Source: Thermosipho melanesiensis BI429
GTDB lineage: Bacteria > Thermotogota > Thermotogae > Thermotogales > Fervidobacteriaceae
Reading direction: 5' to 3'
Length of the DNA: 64,000 nt
Assembly: GCF_000016905.1 (NCBI RefSeq)
Contig: NC_009616.1
Coordinates: 1,054,001-1,118,000, forward strand
Positions 2,104 through 64,000 of the stretch are shown here, one piece after another. The stretch's first letter is position 1. The number at the start of each line of letters is the position of its first letter. A program made the position numbers and the translations under genes. Below the pieces are notes generated by a model. That model searched no databases. It saw nothing but the letters and a program-made list of their open reading frames with translations, and was not told the DNA's origin.

Positions 2104-4668
2104 TTAATCAAAAACTCTAATGGCTTCTGATGCTTTTATCTTTTGTGCAAGGTTTGCAGGATAAATGGTGAAAATTCCCGTTATTAAATATACGCCTGAT
2201 ATGATGAGTATAATTTTCAACCAGGGAATTGTCATTTTAAAATCAGGTATTTCGGAAATTATCATTTTGGAAATATCGTTTATTATGAACATATTTGTAA
2301 AAAGTGCGGTGAGAATTGCAATGGAAACAATTAAAAAGGCTTCTGTTAGGAAGAATTTGAATATAATCTTTTTGTGTACACCTATGGCTTTTAAAGCACC
2401 AATTATTATTCTTCTTTCGTATACGTTTTTAAGGCTCAATATAGTTAGTCCTGAAAAACCGCTTATAAATCCAAAGTAGAAAAGTTGAATGGCTATGTTA
2501 ACAAAGTACCTTATTCCAGAAAATATTTTATCCAATTCTTCTGTGATGTACAAAGGAGAATCAAATTTTTCATATACAATTTGTTTTGCCTTATCTGCAT
2601 ATTCTTTTTTTATAACTCCGGCATATCCAGATAATGCTCCCGAAATTTTTTTGTCGTATACAAATAATCCGTCAAGTGGTACTAATAGTTCTTTGGGATC
2701 ATAGGTATTAGTAACTGTGAATTTTTCTGTAAATTTTGCACTAATACCTGGCAATATTCCCATTATTTTTATATTATATGTACCTTCTTTAAAAACCTTT
2801 TCATTTCCAATACCTTCTTTTAATTCCATTTTGGAAATATTTTTGTCACCTATCTTAAGGTTTTTATATATATCATCCGAAGCAAGGATGATAACTAAGT
2901 CTTTTTTGTTATCTATTTTGGCGTTAACGAGTTGTATTTTAGATATGTTTTCAAACATAGATTTAAACTTTTCATCTTCTGTGTAGTATGAAAATTTAAA
3001 GAAGCTCTTTAAAGGATTTTCTATTATTAAAAAATTATAGCCAAAAATACCAGTATCAAATTTTTGGTTTATGTAATCAAAAACACTAGTTGGAATTGTT
3101 GCAGTTAGTAATATAATTAAGGTGATTAATGTATATACGAAAAAGATTACGTAATTTCTCAATTTCTGTTTTTCTATATATGAGATTGATAAAATAGAGG
3201 GTATGTTGTATATCTTTCTAAGTAGGTATTTTATAAATGGTAAAATAGAAAATACCAAGTATATACTTCCTAGTAGGAATATGATAGAACGTGTAAGATA
3301 ATCCCAGTTAATTCCCGTTCCTATTTTTGTTAACGCTAATAAGATTGCCAATGTACCTGAGATTGCCTGTATGTAGTTTTTTCTGAAAAAGATTGGGATG
3401 ATTAAAATAGTGAAGATTAAAGTGTAAAATAAATTAAATGGTATGCTGATTATTAATATTCCAAACATTGCAAAGTAGAAAAACCTTTTTTTGGGAAGTA
3501 TTTCTGCATCTGAGAGTAAGATAACTGGTGATAATTTTGCAAAAGATATAGAACGTATGAGTAGTATAAATATTGGGACTATAATTGAAACTATGATACC
3601 CAAAATTATAGTTTTTAATGTGATATAAAATGGTATTTTTTCTGGAATTACAGTGTTTGAAGAAATAATTTCAGGTGCTTTGTTAACTAATCCCAAGAGA
3701 TATTTACCAAGGCCTATTCCAAATAACGCACCAACCAAAGATGAAAATAAGATGTAAAAGAATCCCTCTAAAAACAAAAGTAAACCTGTTTTATACTTTG
3801 AAGCTCCCAGTGCTCTCAACGTTCCAAACATTTTTCTTCTTTCTTCTGCTAGTACTCCAAAAAAGTTTGATATGAATAAAAAACTACTTAATAGTGCAAA
3901 ACCACTAAATCCTAAGAACAAATAACCTATTACCTTATTTAGTGGAGAGTATTTTAAGTTGTATTTTGTTGGAGTGGTTCTAAGGTTTAATTCTTTTGAG
4001 ATACTTTCGGCGATTTCTGGATGTTTTTTAATATCATTTCCCAAAGAAATAAACACCGTATTTGGTTCTTTGTATGTGTATATTTTAAGTTTTAATAATA
4101 AATCTTTAGGCATAAATATACTACCATTTGTCATGCCCGTTTCTCCACGAAAGTTTAATTCTTCAGAGCCGATGCCATCGATTTTTACGCTCTTTATACC
4201 ATTAACGGTAACAAGGTTTACGTAATCCCCTTGTTTTATATTTAACGTATTTGCAAGGTCTTTCGAGAGAATTACACCTGAAACGTTCTTTTTAGAAAAC
4301 TTTGAAAAACTTTCATCGTAACCTATTGCAAATACATCTGCAAAGTTATTACCGTATTTTATCCTTGTGGACACTAGCTCAACAAATACGTAATCCTTGA
4401 TTTTATTTGTTGACTTTAGATAACTTAACATTTGACTTATTTTATTTACGTCAAGTGTTCTAGGGAAAAAGAATGTATCACTTTTATCTTTTGCAACGAT
4501 ATCTATGTTTCCAAAGTTGTTTTTGATTTTCTGGGCAAACCAGTTATCAACGGAATCATTTAGTGATAGTGCTCCTACCACTAGCATAGTTGCTATCATA
4601 CTTCCTAAGATTACCAAAAGTGATGTTTTCCAATTTTTAATAATATTTCTAACTGGTATCTTTACCAT
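2104..4668 (-). CDS. FtsX-like ABC transporter permease
   Basis: About 854 residues. It opens with a cytoplasmic basic stretch and a membrane helix (WKTSLLVILGSMIATMLVVG), followed by an extracytoplasmic MacB-like domain of about 200 residues. A cluster of helices around residues 250 to 480 includes the FtsX signature region (RRKMFGTLRALGASKYKTGLL). After a second extracytoplasmic domain comes another FtsX repeat near the C-terminus (ERRIIIGALKAIGVHKKIIFK). This duplicated layout fits large permeases of the LolC/MacB/YknZ superfamily; the substrate is unknown. No ATPase partner is adjacent. I prefer ATG 4668 to GTG 4677, because the GTG lies within the TAGGTGA ribosome-binding site. It follows rpoD without a gap. 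Confidence 0.85.
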   Translation of the reverse strand: MVKIPVRNIIKNWKTSLLVILGSMIATMLVVGALSLNDSVDNWFAQKIKNNFGNIDIVAKDKSDTFFFPRTLDVNKISQMLSYLKSTNKIKDYVFVELVSTRIKYGNNFADVFAIGYDESFSKFSKKNVSGVILSKDLANTLNIKQGDYVNLVTVNGIKSVKIDGIGSEELNFRGETGMTNGSIFMPKDLLLKLKIYTYKEPNTVFISLGNDIKKHPEIAESISKELNLRTTPTKYNLKYSPLNKVIGYLFLGFSGFALLSSFLFISNFFGVLAEERRKMFGTLRALGASKYKTGLLLFLEGFFYILFSSLVGALFGIGLGKYLLGLVNKAPEIISSNTVIPEKIPFYITLKTIILGIIVSIIVPIFILLIRSISFAKLSPVILLSDAEILPKKRFFYFAMFGILIISIPFNLFYTLIFTILIIPIFFRKNYIQAISGTLAILLALTKIGTGINWDYLTRSIIFLLGSIYLVFSILPFIKYLLRKIYNIPSILSISYIEKQKLRNYVIFFVYTLITLIILLTATIPTSVFDYINQKFDTGIFGYNFLIIENPLKSFFKFSYYTEDEKFKSMFENISKIQLVNAKIDNKKDLVIILASDDIYKNLKIGDKNISKMELKEGIGNEKVFKEGTYNIKIMGILPGISAKFTEKFTVTNTYDPKELLVPLDGLFVYDKKISGALSGYAGVIKKEYADKAKQIVYEKFDSPLYITEELDKIFSGIRYFVNIAIQLFYFGFISGFSGLTILSLKNVYERRIIIGALKAIGVHKKIIFKFFLTEAFLIVSIAILTALFTNMFIINDISKMIISEIPDFKMTIPWLKIILIISGVYLITGIFTIYPANLAQKIKASEAIRVFD

Positions 4669-5806: not shown

Positions 5807-7390
5807 AATATTTTTAAGCTTTCTTACAAGCTCTATTCTCGTATTGAGAAGAAGTCTTTTTTCAGAAGGATCTTTTGAGTTTTTTATGTATTCGTCAATT
5901 TCTTCCAACCTTTTTTCGAGGCTTTTTTCTTGTATTTTTTTCTTTATTTCTTCTATATACTCTTCGTTTATTTCAACATGTTTCATTTTTTCAAGTACTT
6001 CTTTTATATACTCTTGCAGTTTTTTAGACAAATTCTCAAAAGAAAAGTTTTTTAAGTGTTTTAGAATTTCTAGTGAACGATTATTTAAAATCTTAGGGTC
6101 AATTTCTAGATCAATTTCGGGATAGTTTATGAGAATGTAGATTATTACATCATCTAGAGAAAAATTGCTTTTTTTAACAATTTTTGTGGTGGAAAGACTA
6201 CTTCCCGAGATTTCTTTTACAACACTTTGGAAAATTTCCAATCTTTTTGGAAAATTTTTAAACAAATTTTCCCAATTTTTTATTTCTTTTAAAAAGAGCT
6301 GAATGGCGTTTGGATTTTCAAAGTTATATTTTTTACTCAAAGCAATAGGTATAAATTTTTCCGCAGGTATTGCTTCTTTAATAAAGTTGTACAATCCTTC
6401 TTTTCCATTTGTTCTGTAAATTTCATCTGGATCTTTTTCTGCAGATTTATTTGCAACCATTACATTAAAGCCCATGAGAACTAATATTTTAATACTTTGG
6501 AGAGCTGCCTTTAATCCTGCAGCATCTGTGTCAAATGAAAGTACCACGTTTGATGTTATTTTTTTCAATTTAAATGCATGAAATTTAGTAAATGCAGTTC
6601 CAAGTGTTGCTACTGCATTTGTTATATCTGCTCTATGGAATGCAAGTGCATCAAAGTAACCTTCACAGATAATGGCAAAGTCTGCAATTTTAATTTGATC
6701 TTTTGCTCTGTCAAGTAAAAAGAGTGTTTTTGATTTTTTGAAAAAATCCGTTTCAAAGGAGTTCAAATACTTTGGTTGTCCTTCACCTAGAAGTCTTCCA
6801 CCAAAGGCTATTATCCTACCATTCTCATCTTTTATGGGAATAATTAACCTTCCCTCAAATAAATCTTTTGTAGAGAAACCAAACTTTTTCAAAATTTTTA
6901 TTCCCAAATTTTCTGCAACTTTTTGTGGGATTTTTGAATTTAAAGGGGAGAATCCAAACTCATACTTTAGTATCTCTTCAGCTGTAAAGCTCCTTTTTTG
7001 CAGATATTCTACAGCTATTGAATTTTTTTGTAGGTGTTTTTTGTATTCTTCGTGTATTAGTTCATAGAGTCTATAATATAACTGTTGAAAAGATGAAACT
7101 TTGACATCAACTTTTATTCCAACTTCTTTTGCAAGCTTTTTAACCGCTTCACTGAAAGATATGTTCTCTATTTCTTCTAGAAACTTAATAACATCCCCAG
7201 ACGCTCCACATCCAAAACAGTGGTAGGTCTTGAAGGATGGATTCACATAAAAAGATGGTGTAGTTTCGGTGTGAAATGGACAGAGACCACGATAATTATT
7301 TCCTACCTTTTGTAGGCTTACATATCGGGAAACAAATTCCACAATATCTATTTTTGATTTAATTTCTTCAATAACTTGTTTTGGGAACAT
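5798..7390 (-). CDS. dnaG: DNA primase
   Basis: A 530-residue replicative primase. The N-terminal CHC2 zinc-binding domain carries C37, H40, C58 and C61 ([11 protein letters not shown] and [10 protein letters not shown]). The RNA polymerase core with the TOPRIM fold follows, with [13 protein letters not shown] near residue 240 and the acidic [11 protein letters not shown] motif near residue 290. The C-terminal helicase-interaction region is short and rich in Lys and Glu. The 3' end abuts rpoD, an arrangement found in many bacteria (the macromolecular synthesis operon). A terminator after rpsI lies just upstream. Confidence 0.96.
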
Positions 7391-7411
7391 AAATCACCTC
7401 TTTAAGAGAAG

Positions 7412-7438
7412 CAAAAATGCGGCAGCAAACATGCTGCC
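7412..7438 (-). terminator. terminator or attenuator between rpsI and dnaG
   Basis: On the minus strand a 7-bp stem GGCAGCA / TGCTGCC with a four-base loop is followed by GCATTTTTG. It ends the ribosomal-protein part of the cluster; some read-through into dnaG and rpoD is possible because no clear promoter is visible in the 57-base gap. Confidence 0.7.
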
Positions 7439-7447
7439 ACAGGGGTA

Positions 7448-7846
7448 TTAACGTTTGGAGAATTGGGGTGCACGTCTTGCTTTTCTGAGACCGTATTTTT
7501 TCCTTTCCACCATTCTGGGATCTCTTGTTAGCATACCTTTTTCTTTTAATGTTGGTCTTAAATCCGCGTTGTATTGTAACAATGCCCTTGCTATACCAAG
7601 TCTAATAGCTCCTGCTTGTCCTGATTTTCCTCCACCATTAACCCTTATCATTATATCAAATGAGCCTTCTAAGCCAGTAACTTTTAATGGTTCCATTGCG
7701 TGGAGCGTCCATACGGAGTTCTTGAGATATCCGTTTAAATCTTCATATTCTTTATTATTAACAACAACTTTTCCATTGCCTTCTTTTAAATAAACCCTTG
7801 CAACAGAGGTTTTTCTTCTTCCAGTGCCCATGTAATATTCAGCCAT
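7448..7846 (-). CDS. rpsI: 30S ribosomal protein S9
   Basis: A 132-residue small-subunit protein. It begins [19 protein letters not shown], has the [23 protein letters not shown] core, and ends with the basic tail [14 protein letters not shown] that reaches into the P site. Length is normal. It lies 15 bases downstream of rplM, the usual rplM-rpsI pair, and has a GGAGGGG ribosome-binding site. Confidence 0.97.
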
Positions 7847-7861
7847 GTCAACCCCTCCTTA

Positions 7862-8311
7862 TTAAAAACTCAATTCAACTGGTTTTTGTGCTTGATGAGG
7901 ATGTTCTGAACCAGCGTATATTTTTAATCTTTTTAACGCCCTTCTTCCAAGTATTGTTTTTGGAAGCATTCTTTTTACTGCAAGTTGTATTAATTTTTCT
8001 GGATTTCTTTGGAGTAATTGTTTTGCGGAAAATTCTTTAATTCCACCTGGATATCCTGAGTGTCTGTAGTATATCTTTTGAGTCCATTTTTTTCCGGTGA
8101 GATTTATTTTGTCTGCGTTTATAACAACAACGAAATTACCACAGTCAACGTGAGGAGTCCAATTCGGTTTGTTTTTTCCCATTAAAACAGTTGCTATTCT
8201 AGTAGCAAGTCTTCCAAGTGTTTGGCCTTCCGCATCTACAAGGTACCAATCTCTCTGTACTTCTTCTTTTTTTAAAAGTGTTGTTTTTTGTATAGGCAAA
8301 GGTCTTGCCAT
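7862..8311 (-). CDS. rplM: 50S ribosomal protein L13
   Basis: A 149-residue large-subunit protein. It carries the L13 landmarks [37 protein letters not shown] and [10 protein letters not shown], with [21 protein letters not shown] near the end. I start at ATG 8311 because a strong GGAGGGAGGAA ribosome-binding site precedes it by the right distance; the longer in-frame start at 8353 would add residues unlike L13 and overlap ribU. It is co-transcribed with rpsI. Confidence 0.97.
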
Positions 8312-8327
8312 TGTTATTCCTCCCTCC

Positions 8328-8861
8328 TTATATTTTCCTTTCATCAGGTTCAAGTATACCTCTAACTCTTTTGTGGATTATTACGTTTATAACCGAGTCT
8401 ATGGAAAATTTTATTGCATTAAAACCTATTATCCATGGAAGTAATTTAAAAACTTCAGATAATGGTACTTTCCAGTAATACGGTACAACTACCATATTTA
8501 AAAGAGCCATTCCACCGGTTGCGGCGACAATCCCTATAACATAACCTAATATTTCTCTAAATTTTCCTTTGTTTGCGTAAATTAGTGCAGCTGGTACTAT
8601 AAAGAGTGCTCCTGCGGCGAAGTTCATGGCAATTCCAACTATATCTCCCGATTTAAATATGAAAAATAGTATATCTTTTATTGCCAAAACTATTATCCCA
8701 ATTGTCGGAGAATATATAAAAGCAACTAACAATGCAAGTATGTCACTAGGGTCGTATTTTAGAAAATTTACTGTGGGAAATATTGGAAATTCTATATACA
8801 TTACTACAAATGCAAGTGCAGCAAACACCCCTATAATTGCCACTTTTTTGGCGTTTTTCAT
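8328..8861 (-). CDS. ribU: riboflavin ECF transporter S component (RibU-like)
   Basis: A 177-residue integral membrane protein with about six hydrophobic helices and no long loops. The N-terminal [22 protein letters not shown] is a typical S-component start. [16 protein letters not shown] and the C-terminal [20 protein letters not shown] match the riboflavin-type S component. It would capture the vitamin and work with a shared EcfAAT energising module, which is not in this window. Its place between rplM and rpmA matches my memory of the Thermotoga gene order. No riboswitch is visible in the 11-base upstream gap. Confidence 0.82.
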
Positions 8862-8872
8862 AGTTTTCCCCC

Positions 8873-9133
8873 TTAGTGAACACTTACATATTTCCTGTTA
8901 TTTCTTACTTCAAATTTTACCGTTCCGTCTTTTAATGCGAATAATGTGAAGTCTCTTCCCATTCCTACATTTTTACCGGGCCAAAATTTTGTTCCCCTTT
9001 GCCGTACAATTATAGTTCCAGCTTTAACTTTTTGACCATCACCTTTTTTTACACCAAGATACTTTGGATTACTATCACGACCATTTCTTGCTGTACTACT
9101 TTTTGCAAAGAGTTGTATATCAATTCTCATCAT
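8873..9133 (-). CDS. rpmA: 50S ribosomal protein L27 with cleavable leader
   Basis: An 86-residue L27. The body has the usual [27 protein letters not shown]-type core and [11 protein letters not shown]. The first nine residues, MMRIDIQLF, form a short leader ending in F before AKSS, the type of site cut by Prp protease in Firmicutes and relatives; prp itself overlaps this gene upstream. Mature L27 would start at A10. Note that the residues after the cut are [15 protein letters not shown] rather than the commoner AHKKGxGSxxNGRDS, so this L27 has a shortened N-terminal arm. The start may be ATG 9133 or 9130. Confidence 0.95.
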
Positions 9134-9431
9134 TGTTCACCTCCGTTTTTAGAAATTTTGGAAATTGGTCTGAAAGATCCATGAGTGTCTCAAGCAATTC
9201 TTTAACAAATATTTGCGAAATTTCATTTTGTTTGATATCTTCTACCTTAAGATATCCTTCTTTTATTAACACCTTTGCTCCTTGTTTTTCCAAAAATCTA
9301 GCGGTATGTTGCGTAACGGTGCTTACTGAGGCACATATAATATCTTCTCCTTTTTTTCCGTACATTGCATGTCCCGTTATCAAGAATTTTTCAAATACCC
9401 CGTTCCTTTTGTAAAAATTACACTTAATCAT
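9120..9431 (-). CDS. prp: ribosomal-processing cysteine protease Prp
   Basis: A 103-residue protease of the YsxB/Prp family. The catalytic His is H21 in ITGHAMYG and the catalytic Cys is C33 in [13 protein letters not shown]; both motifs are intact. It removes the N-terminal leader of L27, which is encoded next to it and overlaps its 3' end by 14 bases. Its start overlaps the end of rplU by four bases. The order rplU-prp-rpmA is the standard arrangement where L27 carries a leader. Confidence 0.94.
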
Positions 9432-9748
9432 TTTACTTCAATATTTTCAACTTTAATAGCGGTGTACCATTGTCTGTGACCCTTAATTCTTTTGTAGTTC
9501 TTTCTTGGTCTAAATTTTCCGACGAGTACCTTTCTTGCCCTGCCGTGTTCCACAATGGTTCCCGTAATAGATACATTTTCAAGGTATGGTTTTCCTACTA
9601 ATAGTTTTCCTTCATCTGTCTTTACCATCAATACCTTGTCAAGAGTTATGGCCTCACCTTCGTTTTTTCCCAAAATCCTTTCGGTGAAAAATACCTTTCC
9701 TGGTTCAACACGATACTGTTTGCCACCGCTTTCAACAATAGCGTACAC
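9428..9748 (-). CDS. rplU: 50S ribosomal protein L21
   Basis: A 106-residue large-subunit protein with the opening [18 protein letters not shown], the middle [20 protein letters not shown], and the C-terminal [11 protein letters not shown] tail. I choose GTG 9748 as start: the alternative GTG 9757 lies inside the GAGGAGGTG ribosome-binding site, which is correctly spaced only for 9748. It heads the minus-strand cluster; a structured leader and a promoter lie upstream. Confidence 0.96.
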
Positions 9749-9786
9749 AAAGTTCACCTCCTCGATGTTTTTGAAATAAACAACCG

Positions 9787-9826
9787 CTGGAACATGTAGC
9801 CCTTTGGCGTTTGAGACACGTTCCAG
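9787..9826 (-). promoter_or_regulatory. rplU leader hairpin (possible r-protein autoregulatory site)
   Basis: In the leader RNA an 11-bp stem (CTGGAACGTGT / ACATGTTCCAG, one G-U pair) closes an 18-base loop that contains CGCC and GGGC. It is about 40 bases upstream of the rplU start. There is no following U-run, so it is not a simple terminator. L21 leaders are known in other bacteria; whether this is homologous is not shown. Confidence 0.6.
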
Positions 9827-9844
9827 GCGACTATAACCTTAAGT

Positions 9845-9874
9845 ATTTTACCACTTTTAATAAAGATGTATGAA
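9845..9874 (-). promoter_or_regulatory. candidate promoter of the rplU cluster
   Basis: On the minus strand TTCATA, an 18-base spacer and TAAAAT precede the structured rplU leader. The -10 element is good and the -35 weak. Confidence 0.45.
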
Positions 9875-9919
9875 AAAATTCTGTTAATGTTGTTTTTCTA
9901 ATAATTAACAAAAAAAGAA

Positions 9920-9949
9920 TTAGACTTTTTTTATTTAGATTGATATAAT
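9920..9949 (+). promoter_or_regulatory. candidate promoter of the MFS-ruvC-polC block
   Basis: TTAGAC and a consensus TATAAT (9944 to 9949) are separated by 18 bases, about 33 bases upstream of the MFS gene start. It diverges from the rplU promoter. Confidence 0.65.
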
Positions 9950-9981
9950 AATTCGTGAAGCGAAATAAGGGAGGAGTTGCT

Positions 9982-53381: not shown

Positions 53382-53416
53382 ATTAGAAAGATTGTTATAA
53401 AAAGGAAGTGGAAAAT

Positions 53417-53617
53417 ATGTCTAAACAATTTGAAATTTTAGAGAAAATGATTGAAACATTTGAAGATTCAATCTTTAAAAAATATTTGTTGAGTCTAAGG
53501 AAAGAAGAATTTGGAATAAGCGAAAGAAGAGATTATTTAAGAAGCAAATATGATGAAATTGTAGATTTTTATAAAGCCCATGAAAAGGGTAAAAAATATG
53601 AAAATAAAAACGGTTAA
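53417..53617 (+). CDS. small helical protein between phosphoesterase and ATPase
   Basis: A 66-residue, very charged helical protein, MSKQFEILEKMIETFEDSIF with KKYLLSLRKEEFGISERRDY and a Lys-rich end. No known family. Its 3' end overlaps the ATPase gene by 20 bases, so translation is probably coupled. It could be an adaptor between the phosphoesterase and the ATPase, but this is a guess. I start at ATG 53417; GTG 53408 would be the alternative. Confidence 0.55.
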   Translation: MSKQFEILEKMIETFEDSIFKKYLLSLRKEEFGISERRDYLRSKYDEIVDFYKAHEKGKKYENKNG

Positions 53618-55823
53618 AATTAATGGCATAAGAGGTTTTCAGTATCATGAAGCTCCTCATGTTATTAGTTTAGATTGTAACCATTTCTTTTTGTTTGGAG
53701 AAAATGGGACTGGAAAATTTAGTTTTTTTGATGCCCTTGAATGGGGATTAACTGGTGATGTGAATGAAACAAGAGTAAGAAAAGTGGGCAGCAAACAAGA
53801 ATACTTGCGAAATAAATTTTGCTTGCCTGGTGATGAACCTTACGTTGAAGTTAAATATAAAAACAATAGTAAAGAAGCAACTTGCAAGAGAATTTTGGGA
53901 AGACAGAATGATTGTGAAATAATTGAAGGGATTGAAAACAATTTTATTGATTCTAAACGAATAGAAGAATTTGTTATTGACACAAAACAATCATTGTGGA
54001 ATAGATTTGCAAGGTTACTTGGATTTGATAGTTTGATAAAATTTGAAGAACAATTGAAACGGCTTAGAAATAAAGCAAAAAATGAATATGAAAGTATTAA
54101 AGAAAAGTTAAATGAAAAAAGAAAACAAATAAGAGATATAGAAGAAGAAATTAAAAATTTAGAATTAAGATTAAAAAAAGAGTTAGGGGAAAATTGGAAA
54201 AGCCAGTTGGTGGATAAAGATAAACAAGGTTTATTGGAAACGCTAAACAAGCTGAGGGAAAAAGAAGAGGCTTTAAAAAATTTTGAAAAAACATTTATTG
54301 AAAAAAACAACCTAAAAACTCAGTTGAATAATATTGAAAGTACAAAAGAAATGTTAAAAATTTCAACAAATGAAATACAAATTTCAAGGGTAATTAATGA
54401 AGCGCTCAATTATTTTTATCAAAAAGAAGATATTAATAAGTGTCCAGTTTGTGGCCAGCCAATTGTTTATAAACAAGTACTAAAACGGTTAGAGACTTTA
54501 AAAAAAGATTTAGATAAAATAATTTCTTTAGATAATCAAAAAGAAATTTTGAATAAAAAGTTATCAGATTTAGATTTAAAAGAAAATGAATTAAAGAAAA
54601 AACTTCAAAAATACTATAAGGACATGAGCATATTTGAAAATTCAGAAAAATCGAATTTTATAAAGTATGAAATAGGGCCAACATCAATAGAAGTTAGGAA
54701 GTTAGAAAAACAAATATTCTTATTGGAAGAAAAAGGAAGGTACATGAAAAGCATCGATGATTTAGAAAAACAGGAAGAAGATTTAAAGCAATTAAAAAAT
54801 CAACACTATCTGAAAAAGAAAATATATGAAGATATAGATAAATTTTATACTTTATATTTAACAAAATATGGGAAGACTATTCAAGAGGAATTAGAAAGAA
54901 TAAGCAAAAGTGAAGTTACAAATGTATACAATGAAATTACCCAGGCGAAAAATCAATTTATTGAATACATTGAAATTAAGCCAAACATAGAAAATCATGA
55001 AATAACTTTTAAACTAAAGATTAGGGGTAAAGAAGAATTAGTCGATGCAATAACTTTTTTAAGCACAGGGCATTTAAGATGCTTAGGTTTTGCACTTTTG
55101 ATTGCAAGAGTTAAATTAAATTCAAGTAATGTAAATTTTATAGCAATTGATGACCCAATTTATTCAGTAGACCATGAAAGAAGATATTTTTTAATAAAGT
55201 ATTTAAGAAAGTTAGCAAATGAAGGCTATCAACTTATTATTACAACTTCTGATAGAACTTTTTTTGATATTATTAGGCATCAATTTAATGGAAACTCTTT
55301 TAATGCATACAAAGCTTTTTTGGATGATTACACTGGTTTGGGAACTCAAGAGGCAATTTTGGGTTCAGTAAAAATAAAAGGTTGGCCAAATAATTATATT
55401 GAAAAAGCTGAAGAGCATTTGGAAAATAAGGATTTGAGAGCTGCAGCGTTATATTCTAGGTTAGCTTTAGAAACTGTATTTAGTATGGCAGCGAAAAAAA
55501 TTAAGCTTGAAGTACCTTATGATGAAGTTGAAAAGATAGGAATAAAAGGTTTTAAAGACGCAGGTTTAAAGAAAAAATTAGAAAAAGTATATTGTGACAA
55601 ATTAAAGGAAATTGACCGTCAATTTCAAAGATTAAGTGACAATAGATATTTTGGGCATTTGTTGAATAGTTTTCCACTTAGTCAGGAAGTTCATTTTCCA
55701 CACGATTCAAGAATAAGTTATGGTTATGATGAAATAAGAGATTTAATAGATATTTTGAAAGATTTTACGGACTTTCTTTTAAATTTGATTAATGGAAATA
55801 AAAGAAGTAGAACAAACTGTTAA
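53598..55823 (+). CDS. SMC/RecF-like ATPase with zinc hook
   Basis: A 741-residue AAA_23-type ATPase. The Walker A stretch is FLFGENGTGKFSFFDA at about residues 32 to 47, where the expected Ser/Thr after Lys is F41. Coiled coils span about 140 to 430, with a zinc-hook CPVCGQP at C282 and C285. The ABC signature is FLSTGHLRCLGFALLIARV and the Walker B is FIAIDDPIYSVD. A C-terminal helical domain of about 150 residues follows (EEHLENKDLRAAALYSRLAL) with no clear assignment. The whole resembles Rad50-type and defence ATPases. The start is ATG 53598 after AAAGGG. Confidence 0.82.
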   Translation: MKIKTVKINGIRGFQYHEAPHVISLDCNHFFLFGENGTGKFSFFDALEWGLTGDVNETRVRKVGSKQEYLRNKFCLPGDEPYVEVKYKNNSKEATCKRILGRQNDCEIIEGIENNFIDSKRIEEFVIDTKQSLWNRFARLLGFDSLIKFEEQLKRLRNKAKNEYESIKEKLNEKRKQIRDIEEEIKNLELRLKKELGENWKSQLVDKDKQGLLETLNKLREKEEALKNFEKTFIEKNNLKTQLNNIESTKEMLKISTNEIQISRVINEALNYFYQKEDINKCPVCGQPIVYKQVLKRLETLKKDLDKIISLDNQKEILNKKLSDLDLKENELKKKLQKYYKDMSIFENSEKSNFIKYEIGPTSIEVRKLEKQIFLLEEKGRYMKSIDDLEKQEEDLKQLKNQHYLKKKIYEDIDKFYTLYLTKYGKTIQEELERISKSEVTNVYNEITQAKNQFIEYIEIKPNIENHEITFKLKIRGKEELVDAITFLSTGHLRCLGFALLIARVKLNSSNVNFIAIDDPIYSVDHERRYFLIKYLRKLANEGYQLIITTSDRTFFDIIRHQFNGNSFNAYKAFLDDYTGLGTQEAILGSVKIKGWPNNYIEKAEEHLENKDLRAAALYSRLALETVFSMAAKKIKLEVPYDEVEKIGIKGFKDAGLKKKLEKVYCDKLKEIDRQFQRLSDNRYFGHLLNSFPLSQEVHFPHDSRISYGYDEIRDLIDILKDFTDFLLNLINGNKRSRTNC

Positions 55824-56223: not shown

Positions 56224-56305
56224 ATTGATGAATGTAGAATTAACTTGCTATTTCATAAATTTTCAAACGAAAGAATAGGGAAAAATTATTACAGAGGTGA
56301 ATAAA

Positions 56306-58156
56306 ATGAAAATAGCTAAAGTGATTTTAGAGAATTTTAGAGCATTTTATGGACGTAATGAAATACCTATTGAAGATTTTACAGTTTTTATTGGACGTAA
56401 TGATCAGGGAAAGTCTACGATTTTAGAAGCTATTGACATTTTTATAAACGATGGGAAAGGGGTAACAAAAATAGAGGAAAATGATTTAAACATTAAAGCA
56501 AAAAATGAAGGAAATGAAATTTTTAAAATAGGTGTTTGTTTTAAAGATTTACCTGAAAATATTGTTATCGATGCTACAAATACTACAACTCTTCAAAATG
56601 AGTATTTACTAAGCAAAGAAGGTTTTCTTGAAATTTATAAAGTCTTTAAAAATGGGAAATTACAAAATAAGGAGACATATATAAGATGTATGCATCCGGC
56701 AAATGATAGTTTTTTAGAAGGCCTTTTAAAGAAAAAGATTACTGAATTGCAAAATTTTGTAAGAGAGAAAGGGCCAGATTGTTTGGATCTTAGAAAAAGT
56801 GCTGAACTGCGAAAATGTATAAGAGATTATTATAAAAGTAAGGATGGCGATCTAGTGTTAAAAGAAATTGATTTAAAAATAAACGAAGAAGGAATGAAGG
56901 ATATATGGCTGCAGTTAGAAAAGTGTTTGCCTATTTTTTCTTTATTTCACTCTGATAGGCCAAATACTGAACAAGATAGTGAAATACAAGATCCGTTAAA
57001 AACTAAGGTAGATGAGATATTTAAAAGAGAGGATATTCAAAATAAATTGGAAGAAATTGCTAAAGAAATTGATGAAGAATTAAAAAAGATTGCTAATGCT
57101 ACTGTGGAAAAATTCAGAGAATTAAGCCAACAGGATACAGAAATAAAACCCAATATACCAGAGGTTGGGAAGTTAAGATGGAAAGATGTTTACAAAGGAA
57201 TAGGTTACAATACTGATAACGATATACCACTTAATAAGCGAGGAAGTGGATTAAGGCGTTTAGTGCTTGTTAGTTCCTTTTTGGCCGAAATTAAAGCTCA
57301 AAATGAATCAGAAGATAATTTAAATGTAATTTATGCGATTGAAGAACCTGAAACTGGTTTGCATCCAGAAATGCAGAAAACATTGATTAATAATCTAATT
57401 AAGCTTTCTAAAAATGGCAAACATCAGATATTAATTACAACACATAGTCCTGCTTTAATAAGATTTTTTGAAACAGATAGTGTGAGATATGTTGAGCAAG
57501 AAAATGGCAAAGCAAAAGTTTATCTTTTCGATGAAAATATAGGAGGCAAAATAGTTAAAGAACTTGGATTATTGCCTAACATTGGAAAAGTTGTAATATG
57601 TGTTGAAGGTACAAATGATAAGAATTTTTTAATGAACATAAACCAAAATATACCTGAACTAATGGAAATTATAGATTTGAAAGAGAAAATTGAAAGTGGA
57701 TTAATTTCAATAATTCCAATGCAGGGAAGCAATTTAAATGAATGGATAGATTGTTATGCTTTAAAAAACACAAATGTTGTAGAATTTCATTTGTATGATC
57801 GCGATTGTGATGAGAAATATAAAAAAGCTGTTGAAGAAGTGAATCAACGTAAAGACGGTTCTTATGGAGTATTAACCACAAAAAGAGAGATTGAAAACTA
57901 TATTCCAAGAAGACTTATTGAAGGAAGTTTAAATATAAAAATAGAATTGGACGACTGGGACAATATAGATATTCCAAAAAAAGTTAAAGAAAAAGTGACC
58001 AGATTTAGTGATGAAAAAGATGTAAAGAATTATTTGTGTGGCTCATTGTCTAAAAAAATTACAAAAAAAGATTTGGAAGATTTGAATGCTTGGGATGAAG
58101 TAAAAAGCTGGTTTGAAAAGATAAAAGAGCTTTGTTCAAAAAGTTTTGACCATTAA
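56306..58156 (+). CDS. OLD-family ATP-dependent endonuclease (ATPase plus TOPRIM)
   Basis: A 616-residue protein. The ABC-type ATPase half has VFIGRNDQGKST (K36), the signature LNKRGSGLRRLVLVSSFLAE, Walker B VIYAIEEPETGLHPEM and the H-loop ILITTHSPAL. The TOPRIM half carries E434 in VICVEGTNDKNF, D498 and D500 in LYDRDCDEKY, and the C-terminal KREIENYIPRRLI motif, so the nuclease looks intact. OLD/GajA proteins cut DNA and act in phage defence. No GajB-type helicase or PARIS-type partner is adjacent. The start is ATG 56306 after GAGGTG. Confidence 0.86.
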   Translation: MKIAKVILENFRAFYGRNEIPIEDFTVFIGRNDQGKSTILEAIDIFINDGKGVTKIEENDLNIKAKNEGNEIFKIGVCFKDLPENIVIDATNTTTLQNEYLLSKEGFLEIYKVFKNGKLQNKETYIRCMHPANDSFLEGLLKKKITELQNFVREKGPDCLDLRKSAELRKCIRDYYKSKDGDLVLKEIDLKINEEGMKDIWLQLEKCLPIFSLFHSDRPNTEQDSEIQDPLKTKVDEIFKREDIQNKLEEIAKEIDEELKKIANATVEKFRELSQQDTEIKPNIPEVGKLRWKDVYKGIGYNTDNDIPLNKRGSGLRRLVLVSSFLAEIKAQNESEDNLNVIYAIEEPETGLHPEMQKTLINNLIKLSKNGKHQILITTHSPALIRFFETDSVRYVEQENGKAKVYLFDENIGGKIVKELGLLPNIGKVVICVEGTNDKNFLMNINQNIPELMEIIDLKEKIESGLISIIPMQGSNLNEWIDCYALKNTNVVEFHLYDRDCDEKYKKAVEEVNQRKDGSYGVLTTKREIENYIPRRLIEGSLNIKIELDDWDNIDIPKKVKEKVTRFSDEKDVKNYLCGSLSKKITKKDLEDLNAWDEVKSWFEKIKELCSKSFDH

Positions 58157-58302
58157 TCAGCGGGCTCAGATGATTTTATTAATCATATATTTTTGATGTG
58201 GCACCATGGATTAAGAAGCTTTAGCTAATTTTCGTAAGCGTAAAGATATTAAGAGTTGCATCTTACTTTTTTAGTAATCCGGGGGGAAAAGGGGATTCAA
58301 GG

Positions 58303-59343
58303 GTGAAAAATGGTCATATAGAGTATTTAAAATCGTTATTGACAAATGTTGACATAAAAGGATATTTAAGACATAGGGAAAGTTCAACCCTTGAGTTTAA
58401 AGAAAAGTTTGGATTTGGGAGCATAGAGCATTATGCTAAAACAATGGCTGCATTTGCCAATAACAAAGGCGGGTATATAATTTTTGGTATAAAAGACAGT
58501 CCAAGGTTGCTAGTAGGAATAAATCGGAAAAAATTCAATGAAATTAGTCAAGAAAAACTTACTGGTTTTTTAATTGAATATTTTTCGCCTGAAATAAAAT
58601 GGGAAATGGGTATTGTGGATATTGGAGAAAAATCCTTTGGTTATATATTTGTTAATGAGTCTTTAGAAAAACCGGTGATTTGCAGAAAAGCTAAGGAAAA
58701 GTTGAAGTCTGGAGAGATTTATTATCGGTATAGAGGTCAAACAAGAAAAATAGAATTTTCTGAGTTAAGAAAAATTATAGAAGAATACAGAGAAAGAGAA
58801 AGACAATATTGGATGAAGCTTATTGAAAGAATAGCAAAAATTGGTCCAACAAATATTGCATTAGTGGATTTATTAAATGGAAGTATTGAAACTACTAGAA
58901 TATCAGGCAAGCAACTTGTCATAGATAAGTCGCTTTTAAATGAGTTAGCAGAAAAAATTAATTTTATTGAAAAAGGTCATTTTGTTGAAACTAGCGGTGA
59001 AACCGCATTAAAAGTTGTAGGGGAAATACAAGTTGCGAATAAAATAATTGTTCCTGATTTAGACCCAAATAAAGATTATCCTTATTTGCAAAAAAAGTTG
59101 GCTGAAATGCTAGGAATAAAGCCGTATTATGTACAGGTATTGGTATGGAAATACAAATTGAAAGGTGACAAAAGATATCATTTAAAATTAGAATGTGGGA
59201 AAAATAAGATTCATAAATTTTCTAAATATGCCTATGAAAAGTTGAAAAGTGAGCTCGAAAAATTGTCAGAGAGTGATTTAAAGCAATTTTCACATGAATA
59301 TGAAAAGTTTAAAAGAGGAAATAAGCTTAGTACACCAGGCTAG
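58303..59343 (+). CDS. AlbA_2/Schlafen-domain protein
   Basis: A 346-residue protein. The first 160 residues form an AlbA_2 (AAA_4, Schlafen-like) domain with ESSTLEFKEKFGFGSIEHYA, then KTMAAFANNKGGYIIFGIKD and later SGEIYYRYRGQTRKIEFSEL. The catalytic E-x-K residues are retained, so a nucleic-acid-cleaving role is possible. The C-terminal half (about 190 to 346) is of unknown type, with a PYLQKKLAEMLGIKPYYVQV segment that resembles a winged-helix. The start is GTG 58303. The gene stands alone in a defence-rich neighbourhood. Confidence 0.78.
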   Translation: MKNGHIEYLKSLLTNVDIKGYLRHRESSTLEFKEKFGFGSIEHYAKTMAAFANNKGGYIIFGIKDSPRLLVGINRKKFNEISQEKLTGFLIEYFSPEIKWEMGIVDIGEKSFGYIFVNESLEKPVICRKAKEKLKSGEIYYRYRGQTRKIEFSELRKIIEEYRERERQYWMKLIERIAKIGPTNIALVDLLNGSIETTRISGKQLVIDKSLLNELAEKINFIEKGHFVETSGETALKVVGEIQVANKIIVPDLDPNKDYPYLQKKLAEMLGIKPYYVQVLVWKYKLKGDKRYHLKLECGKNKIHKFSKYAYEKLKSELEKLSESDLKQFSHEYEKFKRGNKLSTPG

Positions 59344-59612
59344 ATAATTAAGAAAATTTTTTTAAAAATACAAAGAGGAAAATAAAAAGTTTATCAGTGT
59401 AATTGAATTAATAACAAACTCAATTTCTGAATTTGTGATATCAAGTATGGGATAATTTACAAGAATGATTAAGGAAGGAATTGCCTTCAAAAGTGTTCAT
59501 ATTTTAGAGGGACAATTGATAACAGTTTTTTATTTGAAAATATCTTTGGAGATAAATATAAGATTTGATCGTATTATAGTATTTATGATTACTAAAACTT
59601 AGGGGGGATTTT

Positions 59613-60953
59613 ATGAACACAATAACTTCCAAAACTTATAATAAGATTATAGATATTATTAAAAATAACGTTAATATGGTTATTGACGAAATTTCTGAAT
59701 TAGAAAATATATTAGAAAACTTGCCTAAAAATAAAGTGGTGTGCATTAATAATAGTTTCTTTTATAGGAAAGATTTTGTAAAAACTTCTAAAAATTCGAA
59801 ATACCTTTGTTTTTCAAAAGAAGATAATAAAGTAAAAGTTTTTATTGGAAAGCTTCAAAATGACATAAAAAAGGACTGGGTAGCTTTTGATAGCAAACAG
59901 ATTTCGAAAATAGATTTAGAGTTGGCAGTTAGAAGAGAACTTAAAGTAATTGGTGATATAGTTTTTATTCTTATAGGAAATTTGGAAGAAGTTTCAAGTG
60001 AAGTTGAATTAGAATTTAGAAAAGCAAAAAGATTAAAGTATGACCCTTCAATTAAAGAAGAGATTTATATAGAAGAAATTGATAAAAAAGGTAATTTCAA
60101 TTGCATAGTAAATTCGCTTGTTTATTCTGAGAGATTGTTAGAAAACATTGGTAGAGAAATTTTAAAGGCATTGAATGAAGAATTTAATGAAGATAATAAG
60201 AAAAATATTAGAAATAAAGTTACAAAAGCATTTGATAAACTTGTTAAAAAAGCACATATAAAGTTGGTATTACCAGGAAGTCGTGAGGATAGTGATTTTT
60301 CAAATAGCTTAATAAGTAAGATGATTTTGTCATTTGAAAGTCAACTACAAAAGTATGAAAATAGTTTAAATAAATATTTTTATTCAAAAAAGAAAGAAGA
60401 AAAGGAAAGAGGATTAATTGAACTATTGAGATTATCTTATTCGTTTGCTGATGATTCAATTAAATTATTAAAATTGCTTGTGACAATTACTGATCTTAAA
60501 CCTTTGATTTTATGGTGCACACTTTTTGATTTTTATAAATTGAAAGAAGAATTTAGTAAAATACCATTTATTTTAAAAGGTAATCAAAAAAAGCCGTCTT
60601 TAAAAGATTACAGAGAAATTGTTGCTAGTGTTAGAAATTTTGCTTTTCATCGTTTTTTCTTAATTGATAAACCAATAGAAGCAGATTTAACAAATATTAA
60701 ATTAAATGCTAAAAGGCTTAGATTTTTTGGATATCATAGTGGAAATAAAAAGACAACTCGAAATTTAGAATATCAAGATCAAGAAATTGTCGAGGCTCTT
60801 CAAGAGTTTACTACTACAACCAAAAGTGATATTTCAGATGATTTTTGGGAAAAGAATCTGAATATCATGAAGAGTATGGAGAATTTATTAAAATCAATGG
60901 AAGAGATTCTGTGGGTTGTTTTCGAAATGAGATATCAAATATCAGAAAATTAA
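59613..60953 (+). CDS. putative HEPN-type ribonuclease
   Basis: A 446-residue, largely helical protein of unknown family. A HEPN-like motif RNFAFH (R341 to H346) sits inside the helix VASVRNFAFHRFFLIDKP, matching the catalytic R-polar-xxx-H pattern of HEPN ribonucleases. The N-terminal 120 residues have mixed strands and helices, and a basic helical region with LVKKAHIKLVLPGSRED follows. The KAP-family NTPase starts 67 bases downstream on the same strand without a terminator between, so the two are probably one unit. Assignment rests on this single motif and context. The start is ATG 59613 after AGGGGGGA. Confidence 0.55.
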   Translation: MNTITSKTYNKIIDIIKNNVNMVIDEISELENILENLPKNKVVCINNSFFYRKDFVKTSKNSKYLCFSKEDNKVKVFIGKLQNDIKKDWVAFDSKQISKIDLELAVRRELKVIGDIVFILIGNLEEVSSEVELEFRKAKRLKYDPSIKEEIYIEEIDKKGNFNCIVNSLVYSERLLENIGREILKALNEEFNEDNKKNIRNKVTKAFDKLVKKAHIKLVLPGSREDSDFSNSLISKMILSFESQLQKYENSLNKYFYSKKKEEKERGLIELLRLSYSFADDSIKLLKLLVTITDLKPLILWCTLFDFYKLKEEFSKIPFILKGNQKKPSLKDYREIVASVRNFAFHRFFLIDKPIEADLTNIKLNAKRLRFFGYHSGNKKTTRNLEYQDQEIVEALQEFTTTTKSDISDDFWEKNLNIMKSMENLLKSMEEILWVVFEMRYQISEN

Positions 60954-61020
60954 ATGGCAGTATTGATAAGTATGGCACAAGATTTTAAGTTAGAAGAAAT
61001 TATGTGATAGGGGGATTAAT

Positions 61021-64000
61021 ATGGGGGATAACAGAACCTTATTTGTTAGTGATGTTCCTACAACGGATGATCAGTTTGAAACTCACAGTAAAATAGCTAA
61101 ACAAATGGCGAATTTTATTGAAGGTTTAAGTGAAGGAACAACAATTGCCCTGAAAGGAAAATGGGGAAGTGGAAAATCAAGTGTAATTGAAATACTTAAA
61201 GAAAAAACGAAGGAGAAGAGTAATTTTAAGATATTTGTTTTTGATGTGTGGGCAGAGCTGGGACATAATTTTAGACAGGCATTTTTGTTAAATTTTTTGG
61301 ATTGGAGCACTCAGGAATTCGGGAAAGATCTTTTTGAAGAACCAGAGAGTGATTACGAAAAAAGAAGGTTAGAAATTATTGGGAAAAGGAAGAAAATTAT
61401 GAGAAATGTTACCCCTACTAATAGGACAGCTTTATTGCACTTGTTTGTTTTAATTTTAATGTTAACACTTGTACCGAATTTTATTTCTTTTTTGTTAAAT
61501 AATTTATCAACAGGGGTTGTAAGAATTTTAAGTTTTCTTGCAATATATTCTTTTCCTTTAACAATTTTGCTTGCTTATTACTTTATTAGTGTTAAGGAAG
61601 AAATTTTCAAGAGTATTAGGAAGAAATCTTTGAATAAATTTTGGAAGAAATTTTTGTATATTTTGTATTATATTTTTTATATAATAGTTGGAAAATATGG
61701 AATATGGTTATGGTTAGTTTCATATGGGTTCTGGGTAGGCCTTTCAATAAAGTATTTAGTAAATCCACAGTCTTTTAATGAAAATTTTATTCTATTACTA
61801 TCAGTTGGTATTTATTTAGCAATACCTATTTCGATTTGGTTGGCGACGATGATTACAAAGAAAACTAAAAATCTTATTCCAATTGTATCAATGTATAGCG
61901 GCCTTTTGATTGGGAATTTTACAGATCATGAAGAAACAAGATCTTTAGGTGATAATTCGCTAGATTTTAAAAAAGAATTTATTGATATTTTAAATAAAAT
62001 AACAACCAGAAAAAATGGAAAAATTAAAATTATTATTGTTATTGATAACGTAGATAGGATTCCAGAAGAAAAAGTGGATGAAGTTTTTGCAGCTTTAAAA
62101 CCGTTTATGATATCCGATGAAAGTAAGAAGAATAACGTTCTAAAAAATGTATTTTATATTATTCCGTTTGATCCAGGTGGAATTAGAATAGAAACAGATA
62201 AAGGGGGATATGATTACTTTAATAAGCTGTTTAAAAAAGAATTTTACGTTCCTGAACCAGTATATGGAAGTTGGCATTTATTTCTTGATAAGCTTTTAAA
62301 AGAAAATGGAATAAATATAGATGAACATATATTTGAAATTGCTTTGCAAATTGGAAGAGAATTAAAGATTTATCTGGATAGTTATTCTGAAAATAACAAA
62401 AAGGATAATAAGGATAGTAGGGAGTATTATGGAAAAAACGAATTCAATCCTCCTACTCCTAGAGAAATCAAAAAATTCATAAATAATTTCATATCAGTCT
62501 GTCCTAGAAATGAAAAAGCTAGTAAAAAAGACATTTTTCCATATGCCCTTTTTGCTGCATTAAAAACTTATGGAATTTTGGAAAGTTCAAGCAATCTTGA
62601 AGAGATTTTATGCGAGGAGATTATAGAAGACACTGAAAATGAAAAAGAGAATGAAAAAGAATTAAAAAAAGATAAAAATAGGAAATCATTTTTTGAAAAC
62701 TTTCTTATTAGAAAAGGGTATACAGGGTATAGTTTTATAGATATAGAGAATTTGGAACATCAAATATTCGGAATTTATTATAACATTAGTCCGCAAGAGT
62801 CATATATAGTTTTAAATAGAGTAGAAATTGAAAAAATACTAAAAACACCATCTTATACCACAAAATTTAAAGATTTTATTTCTAGCATTCCAAAACTTAC
62901 CAAAAATGATACTATTTCAGGCACGTTAAAAGAAATTTTTAAAGGGCTTAACGAAAGAATATTTAATACAGAACCACAAATTTTAGTTTTTGCAAGTATT
63001 TATCTCAAGGAATTAAAAGAATTAAAAGAAGAAGTTTATAATGAATTAAAAGATATTGTTTTTAGTTTTTTAAGGGAACAAGTTGATAATGACAGAGAAC
63101 TTGTTTCAAAGATTGACAATCTATTTGAAATTGAAGCTGACGATCAAGAGAACAATATATTAAAAGCTCTATCTTTTATATATTCAGAGTCTGGTATAGA
63201 TTTAATAAATCCTGTACTAAAATATTCAAAATATAAAGGGATTGCTTTAGAAACAATAATTTTTGAAAAAGTAGACGTAGATATGAACAATTTGAAAAAA
63301 GGTTTTGATATTTCTAAGGAAGATGCTGAACAGATTATTATAATTCTAGAATCTATTGGAGAAAAATATAATGACATTAATTTTAATATGAAAGATAGGA
63401 TAGAAAAGATATTATACAAAACGATGATCGTTAATGAAAAAGTGGTGGAACAAATTCTTGAGTTTTATAAAAATGGAGAAATTGATGAATCGTTTTTGAA
63501 CGTTTTGAAGGGATTGTCGTTAATACTTGAATTGAATAGTTTTAAACAAGAAAAAGAGAGTATATACGAGTTAATTTTAAGTAATTTTGAAATTTTGAGA
63601 AATAAAGTAATATCAAATCAAAATATCGATAATCCTAGAAGAAAATTATTTAGTAAATACCTTTTAACAATTTACAGATATTACTATAACTTAAAATTTG
63701 AGGAAAGAGTATTACATATGATCAAAAATAACTGGAAAAAAATAGCAACAATATCTGAAACAGATACTAAAAAATTTGTTGAGTCTGCAATATTTACTAT
63801 TATTGTGACTTGTCCTAAATTTTTTAATGTAGAGTTTGATAATAATTTTCTTGATGAAGTATTAACAAATACTGATCAAAAAATTCTTGAAGATCTTATT
63901 AAGGAATACGAGATGATTGGTCTTATGAAAAAAGAAGAAATATTTAAGCTATATGATAAATTAACAAACATATCTTCAAAGCATATAAATAGAATAAATA
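61021..64000 (+). CDS. KAP-family P-loop NTPase, N-terminal part
   Basis: An open frame of 993 codons that runs off the right edge. The Walker A is KGKWGSGKSS (G46 to S54). About four membrane helices lie between residues 140 and 280 (LFVLILMLTLVPNFI and later), inserted in the NTPase domain as is typical for KAP proteins. Walker B is IIIVIDNVDRI (D342, D345). The sensor-like IIPFDPGG and the TPREIKKFINNF helix follow. The rest is a long helical region of unknown role. KAP NTPases sit at the inner membrane and occur in bacterial defence islands. The start is ATG 61021 after GGGGGAT. Confidence 0.86.
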   Translation, partial: MGDNRTLFVSDVPTTDDQFETHSKIAKQMANFIEGLSEGTTIALKGKWGSGKSSVIEILKEKTKEKSNFKIFVFDVWAELGHNFRQAFLLNFLDWSTQEFGKDLFEEPESDYEKRRLEIIGKRKKIMRNVTPTNRTALLHLFVLILMLTLVPNFISFLLNNLSTGVVRILSFLAIYSFPLTILLAYYFISVKEEIFKSIRKKSLNKFWKKFLYILYYIFYIIVGKYGIWLWLVSYGFWVGLSIKYLVNPQSFNENFILLLSVGIYLAIPISIWLATMITKKTKNLIPIVSMYSGLLIGNFTDHEETRSLGDNSLDFKKEFIDILNKITTRKNGKIKIIIVIDNVDRIPEEKVDEVFAALKPFMISDESKKNNVLKNVFYIIPFDPGGIRIETDKGGYDYFNKLFKKEFYVPEPVYGSWHLFLDKLLKENGINIDEHIFEIALQIGRELKIYLDSYSENNKKDNKDSREYYGKNEFNPPTPREIKKFINNFISVCPRNEKASKKDIFPYALFAALKTYGILESSSNLEEILCEEIIEDTENEKENEKELKKDKNRKSFFENFLIRKGYTGYSFIDIENLEHQIFGIYYNISPQESYIVLNRVEIEKILKTPSYTTKFKDFISSIPKLTKNDTISGTLKEIFKGLNERIFNTEPQILVFASIYLKELKELKEEVYNELKDIVFSFLREQVDNDRELVSKIDNLFEIEADDQENNILKALSFIYSESGIDLINPVLKYSKYKGIALETIIFEKVDVDMNNLKKGFDISKEDAEQIIIILESIGEKYNDINFNMKDRIEKILYKTMIVNEKVVEQILEFYKNGEIDESFLNVLKGLSLILELNSFKQEKESIYELILSNFEILRNKVISNQNIDNPRRKLFSKYLLTIYRYYYNLKFEERVLHMIKNNWKKIATISETDTKKFVESAIFTIIVTCPKFFNVEFDNNFLDEVLTNTDQKILEDLIKEYEMIGLMKKEEIFKLYDKLTNISSKHINRIN

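Follow-up and report, generated by a model that had tools for sequence, protein, structure and literature searches.

What does a protein with a HEPN-type RNase motif do in a bacterial defense island when it directly precedes a KAP-family P-loop NTPase, and are two such genes a dedicated pair or neighbors in one genome? The question is raised by a window of 64,000 nucleotides (positions 1054001-1118000) in the 1.9-Mb single-contig genome of Thermosipho melanesiensis BI429 (G000). Near its right end lies a forward-strand gene with an ATG start that codes for a 446-aa protein (59613..60953; hereafter H), which is preceded by the ribosome-binding site GGGGGG (59602..59607, +). The KAP gene follows on the same strand.

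The HEPN-type motif of H

In HEPN domains, helix 3 ends in an Rx4-6H signature whose R is followed by N, D or H, and helix 2 contributes an acidic residue (Anantharaman et al., 2013; PMC3710099). In H, the stretch R341-N-F-A-F-H346 (codons at 60633..60650, +) is an Rx4H version of this motif, with N342 as the polar residue following the R. Across H and its homologues in five other genomes, six proteins at 25-85% identity, R341, N342, F345 and H346 never vary (R-N-x-x-F-H), and no His other than H346 is invariant. While an R[NDH]xxxH pattern arises in 1.8% of shuffled copies of H (conservation aside), the persistence of these four residues down to 25% identity and the status of H346 as the only invariant His indicate that RNFAFH is not there by chance. 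Accounting for it as a catalytic motif is thus well supported at the sequence level, and the initial annotation of this DNA was right both in reading a 446-residue protein with RNFAFH from R341 to H346, as the ORF and the position of the motif confirm, and in calling that motif a HEPN-type catalytic one, as the invariance across the six homologues indicates. Additionally, E270 and R273 (Ex2R) are invariant in the homologues and fall in a predicted helix (261-295) that precedes the motif; the acidic residue of HEPN helix 2 typically occurs as Ex3[KR], from which the spacing in H differs.

H is predicted to combine an N-terminal mixed alpha/beta region with a C-terminal helical domain (~222-446) that bears the motif. 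This domain is better kept than the rest of the protein, at 52 vs 38-39% identity with the homologue in G086 and 34 vs 29% with that in G010. Searches of Pfam, NCBIfam, PADLOC, PHROG and PDB recovered no family for H, and no member of the H family matches any HEPN profile in Pfam, NCBIfam or PADLOC; such a match would be supporting rather than required, as many HEPN families were found only by profile-profile search. AlphaFold places helices at 233-257, 261-295, 297-315, 330-339 and 410-445, and in two low-confidence models (the whole of H and its C-terminal half; pLDDT ~30-40 at the motif and <50 across 339-406) their predicted order fits the HEPN layout, with the motif after a helix. Foldseek searches with these two low-confidence models returned nothing significant, and an hhalign comparison with DUF4209 was null, the profiles being small on both sides (Neff ~2). 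Taken together, H is a probable rather than proven HEPN protein.

Distribution and genomic neighborhoods of H

Homologues of H were found in G014 and G003 (85% identity each), G086 (46%), G010 (31%) and G278 (25%), the last of which belongs to a different phylum from the remaining H-bearing genomes. The gene is present in five of the 103 genomes of the phylum. Among genome contigs, only a Thermosipho MAG was recovered, which is the nearest named relative. There were no tblastn matches to plasmids with H or the G010 and G278 homologues, nor to phages with H or the G278 homologue, and four scans of viral contigs recovered no relative. Two further phyla were searched without a relative being counted, one weak match (E=9e-4, 671-aa ORF) having been left out. 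A weak match in G132 (E=0.009) was also rejected, as its reading frame is apparently unrelated. In G086, the C-terminal H domain is present a second time as a decayed copy, broken into two pieces (G086:C12:19017-19377; L010, L011), ~11 kb from the intact gene.

Upstream of H in the window are three forward-strand genes: an SMC-like ATPase with LmuB as its best PADLOC match (53580..55823), an OLD/AriA/GajA-like AAA ATPase (56297..58156), both recognized with Pfam and PADLOC, and a Schlafen/AlbA_2 protein (58303..59343; PF04326, 4e-22). The start of the SMC-like ATPase is overlapped by a 69-aa ORF (53408-55823 for the two), an arrangement that recurs in G010 at 66% identity. The order SMC-OLD-AlbA-H is common to G000 and G003, where the AlbA_2 gene is 84% identical, and the two loci diverge where H ends, with a NERD gene in G003 vs KAP in the window. 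In G003 (L014:10832-12559) the OLD-type ATPase gene occupies two separate reading frames, whereas in the window it is intact.

What stands 3' of H varies. A NERD gene follows on the same strand after 16-18 bp in G003 and G014. In G010 the next gene on the H strand, 393 bp downstream, encodes a DRT-type RT-nitrilase (RVT_1, 1e-14; PADLOC RTasNitrilase, 3e-54), and a PD-T7-3 homologue comes after it. In G278 a GmrSD-type gene (GmrSD_N, 9e-26; PADLOC HEC-05, 3e-62), again on the H strand, overlaps H by 4 bp, and in G086 a DUF2188-like ORF lies ~230 bp away, followed by the KwaA/KwaB genes of Kiwa. This variation of partners rests on six homologues and hence on few independent cases. On the upstream side, the ribosome-binding site of H and ~128 bp before it are common to G000 and G014, with different genes further upstream; accordingly, H is probably the first gene of a transcription unit of its own. 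A 1067-aa SIR2-domain protein (ThsA/Dsr2-like by PADLOC) is encoded ~2 kb upstream of H in G014 (L013:1429-4632).

Neighbors in defense islands can be accidental. The company of OLD, SMC and Schlafen/AlbA genes around H, and of Kiwa, DRT and PD-T7-3 around its relatives, makes a defense role likely, in agreement with the defense setting proposed at the outset.

The KAP gene and its junction with H

The KAP gene has its own ribosome-binding site GGGGG (61010..61014, +) and runs from 61021 to 64000 (+) and on past the window (L004:3022-6726), where the genome sequence completes an ORF of 1234 aa. It belongs to the KAP family (PF07693; E=4e-19, 69.3 bits against a cut-off of 20), and inserted hydrophobic segments at residues ~136-184, 212-232 and 252-274 separate Walker A from the VIDNVDR strand; on both counts the first reading of this gene holds. 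PifA and QatA are its best PADLOC matches, which are weak and restricted to ~60-80 residues around the P-loop. A QatABCD assignment was rejected, as the QatA equivalog scores 34.8 bits vs a cut-off of 600, and no qatB, qatC or qatD neighbor was recognized among the ORFs near KAP scanned with Pfam and PADLOC. Further 3' are a small ORF whose GIY-YIG match is below threshold, an ORF that resembles DUF2188 by eye and an ATPase_2 protein.

Close homologues of this KAP occur in three of the 103 genomes of the phylum, namely G000, G014 and G006. G006, which is without H, has a DUF7380-DUF4209 protein (PDC-S39) with the HEPN-like motif RHKVAH ~220 bp upstream of KAP (L036:4187-6058 and 6281-9954), and DUF4209 is a listed HEPN family (PMC3710099). 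This KAP subfamily thus has HEPN-motif proteins upstream of it repeatedly, which hints at function. More distant KAPs, on Rhizobium and Thermaerobacter plasmids and in G362, have no HEPN-motif neighbor; the one in G362 stands behind a type IIG-like RM gene. The KAP gene of G006 shifts frame near the Walker A region.

The junction itself is as initially described: a spacer of 67 bp (60954..61020, +) separates the same-strand genes H and KAP, and a search of 58200-61200 revealed no terminator-like site. Both genes have strong ribosome-binding sites of the GGGGG type. Similarity to the relatives ends at the last codons of H, and the spacer holds no NERD remnant. A decayed N-terminal piece of a NERD gene is present ~18 kb 3' of KAP (G000:C1:1136039-1136269; L035; L039 ~8040-8270), after an 853-aa SMC-like ATPase.

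The claim of a fixed pair did not survive comparison across genomes. KAP adjoins H in one of the six H loci and is nearby in two: G003, G010, G086 and G278 have no KAP near H, and in the fifth relative, G014, the order is H, NERD 16 bp on, ~890 bp of broken reading frames and then KAP. The initial annotation had itself held that neighbors unconserved in relatives would speak against the pair, and this is what we find for KAP. Moreover, between G000 and G014 KAP is 42% identical vs 85% for H, because of which the two genes probably do not have one common history, although unequal rates are possible. On this genomic evidence, H is not tied to KAP, the membrane NTPase is one exchangeable neighbor, and KAP is neither an ancestral nor an obligate partner; it now occupies the slot downstream of H and may be co-transcribed with it.

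What H might do

The explanation that we favor, and to which we give an even chance, is that H works in island defense as a portable RNase effector of the HEPN type, whose N-terminal domain provides input or restraint and whose partners are exchangeable. H would act as a metal-independent endoribonuclease against phage or another invader, its C-terminal helical domain (~222-446) cutting RNA via R341, N342 and H346, while the N-terminal domain would restrain cutting or receive a signal. Infection would activate H, and the resulting RNA cleavage would halt growth. In the different genomes H would have been placed before varied partners, i.e., a NERD nuclease-domain protein, an RT-nitrilase, a GmrSD-type protein and a KAP NTPase. 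We infer the RNase activity, the toxicity, the N-terminal regulation and any physical link between H and its partners. A bolder version, which we hold only tentatively, is that H is the founder of an unrecognized family of HEPN RNases, a plug-in killing module whose one N-terminal input domain is common to triggers as varied as KAP, NERD, the DRT RT-nitrilase and the GmrSD-type protein.

Two rival accounts seem to us less likely, and equally so. One is the originally proposed model of a dedicated two-gene system, in which the membrane KAP detects infection and then either activates H, the HEPN RNase, or holds it in check. The close same-strand spacing without a terminator would suit it, as would the recurrence of KAP 3' of H in G014, albeit behind the NERD gene, and the other HEPN-motif protein that precedes KAP in G006; also, the C-terminal half of KAP is fast-evolving between G000 and G014 (~30% identity, vs 60-73% in the NTPase core), as one would expect of a sensor. 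Against this stand the four H loci without KAP, the NERD gene that fills the slot in the nearest relatives, the disparity between the identities of KAP and H, and the distant KAPs that lack a HEPN neighbor. The other account makes H a one-gene defense effector or toxin, with the downstream genes as separate systems that adjoin it by chance. The region upstream of H that is common to G014 in spite of different upstream genes points this way, as do the locus in G086, which is without a large operon partner, and the listing of the RT-nitrilase, HEC-05 and Kiwa by PADLOC as defense components in their own right. However, the short distances in three loci (NERD 16-18 bp away, GmrSD overlapping by 4 bp) suggest co-expression, and HEPN RNases usually require a restraint. 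That RNFAFH is something other than a HEPN active site, conserved on different grounds, and H an adaptor of novel fold with a structural or nucleic-acid-binding role, is quite unlikely: the lack of HEPN profile and fold matches and the presence of other invariant motifs, such as INNSF at 45-49, are in its favor, but it has to contend with an exact R-polar-x3-H motif, rare in shuffled copies even before conservation is considered, that contains the only invariant His and is modeled behind a helix of the C-terminal helical domain.

Relationship to known systems

Defense is an established setting for HEPN effectors, KAP NTPases, NERD proteins, DRTs and GmrSD proteins alike. The H family with its alternating neighbors was not found in the databases or open-access literature that we searched, and an earlier description elsewhere is possible. 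H resembles members of the HEPN superfamily in its Rx4H motif with N after the R, its predicted helical domain and its presence in a defense island. Previously, MAE_28990 and RiboL-PSP-HEPN were reported to share operons with ParB-type genes, and AbiA-CTD to be fused to a reverse transcriptase (PMC3710099), and likewise homologues of H adjoin ParB/DUF262-type (G278) and RT (G010) genes. Unlike the listed HEPN families, H has no profile match, an unmatched N-terminal region of ~220 residues and, in the models, ~60 residues that separate the motif from the last helix; it also neighbors KAP and NERD, neither of which terms appears in the text of PMC3710099. The KAP of the window shares the KAP P-loop core with PifA and with QatA of QatABCD, but differs from both in its 1234-aa length, hydrophobic inserts and long C-terminal region, and no QatB, QatC or QatD gene was recognized near it. 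The G006 locus, where PDC-S39 (DUF7380-DUF4209, of the HEPN C6orf70 family) is encoded upstream of the KAP homologue, offers a parallel in gene order, although a sequence relation of PDC-S39 to H is undetectable, the null hhalign result coming from small profiles.

H adds an unannotated HEPN-motif family to the defense islands of Thermotogota. It suggests that a single RNase effector can serve alongside several kinds of defense genes, including a DRT-type RT-nitrilase, and it serves as a warning that adjacency in a single genome, as for H and KAP, need not mark a fixed system. With respect to DRT and RT-nitrilase systems (UG1, UG5), the open-access papers searched mention no HEPN partner of the RT-nitrilase; the H locus of the window is without an RT-nitrilase, unlike that of G010, where the H homologue directly precedes one. 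The G010 RT-nitrilase, a protein of 1419 aa, and the PD-T7-3 homologue after it lie at L016:4172-8431 and 2353-3831, and the gap that separates the RT-nitrilase from H is AT-rich.
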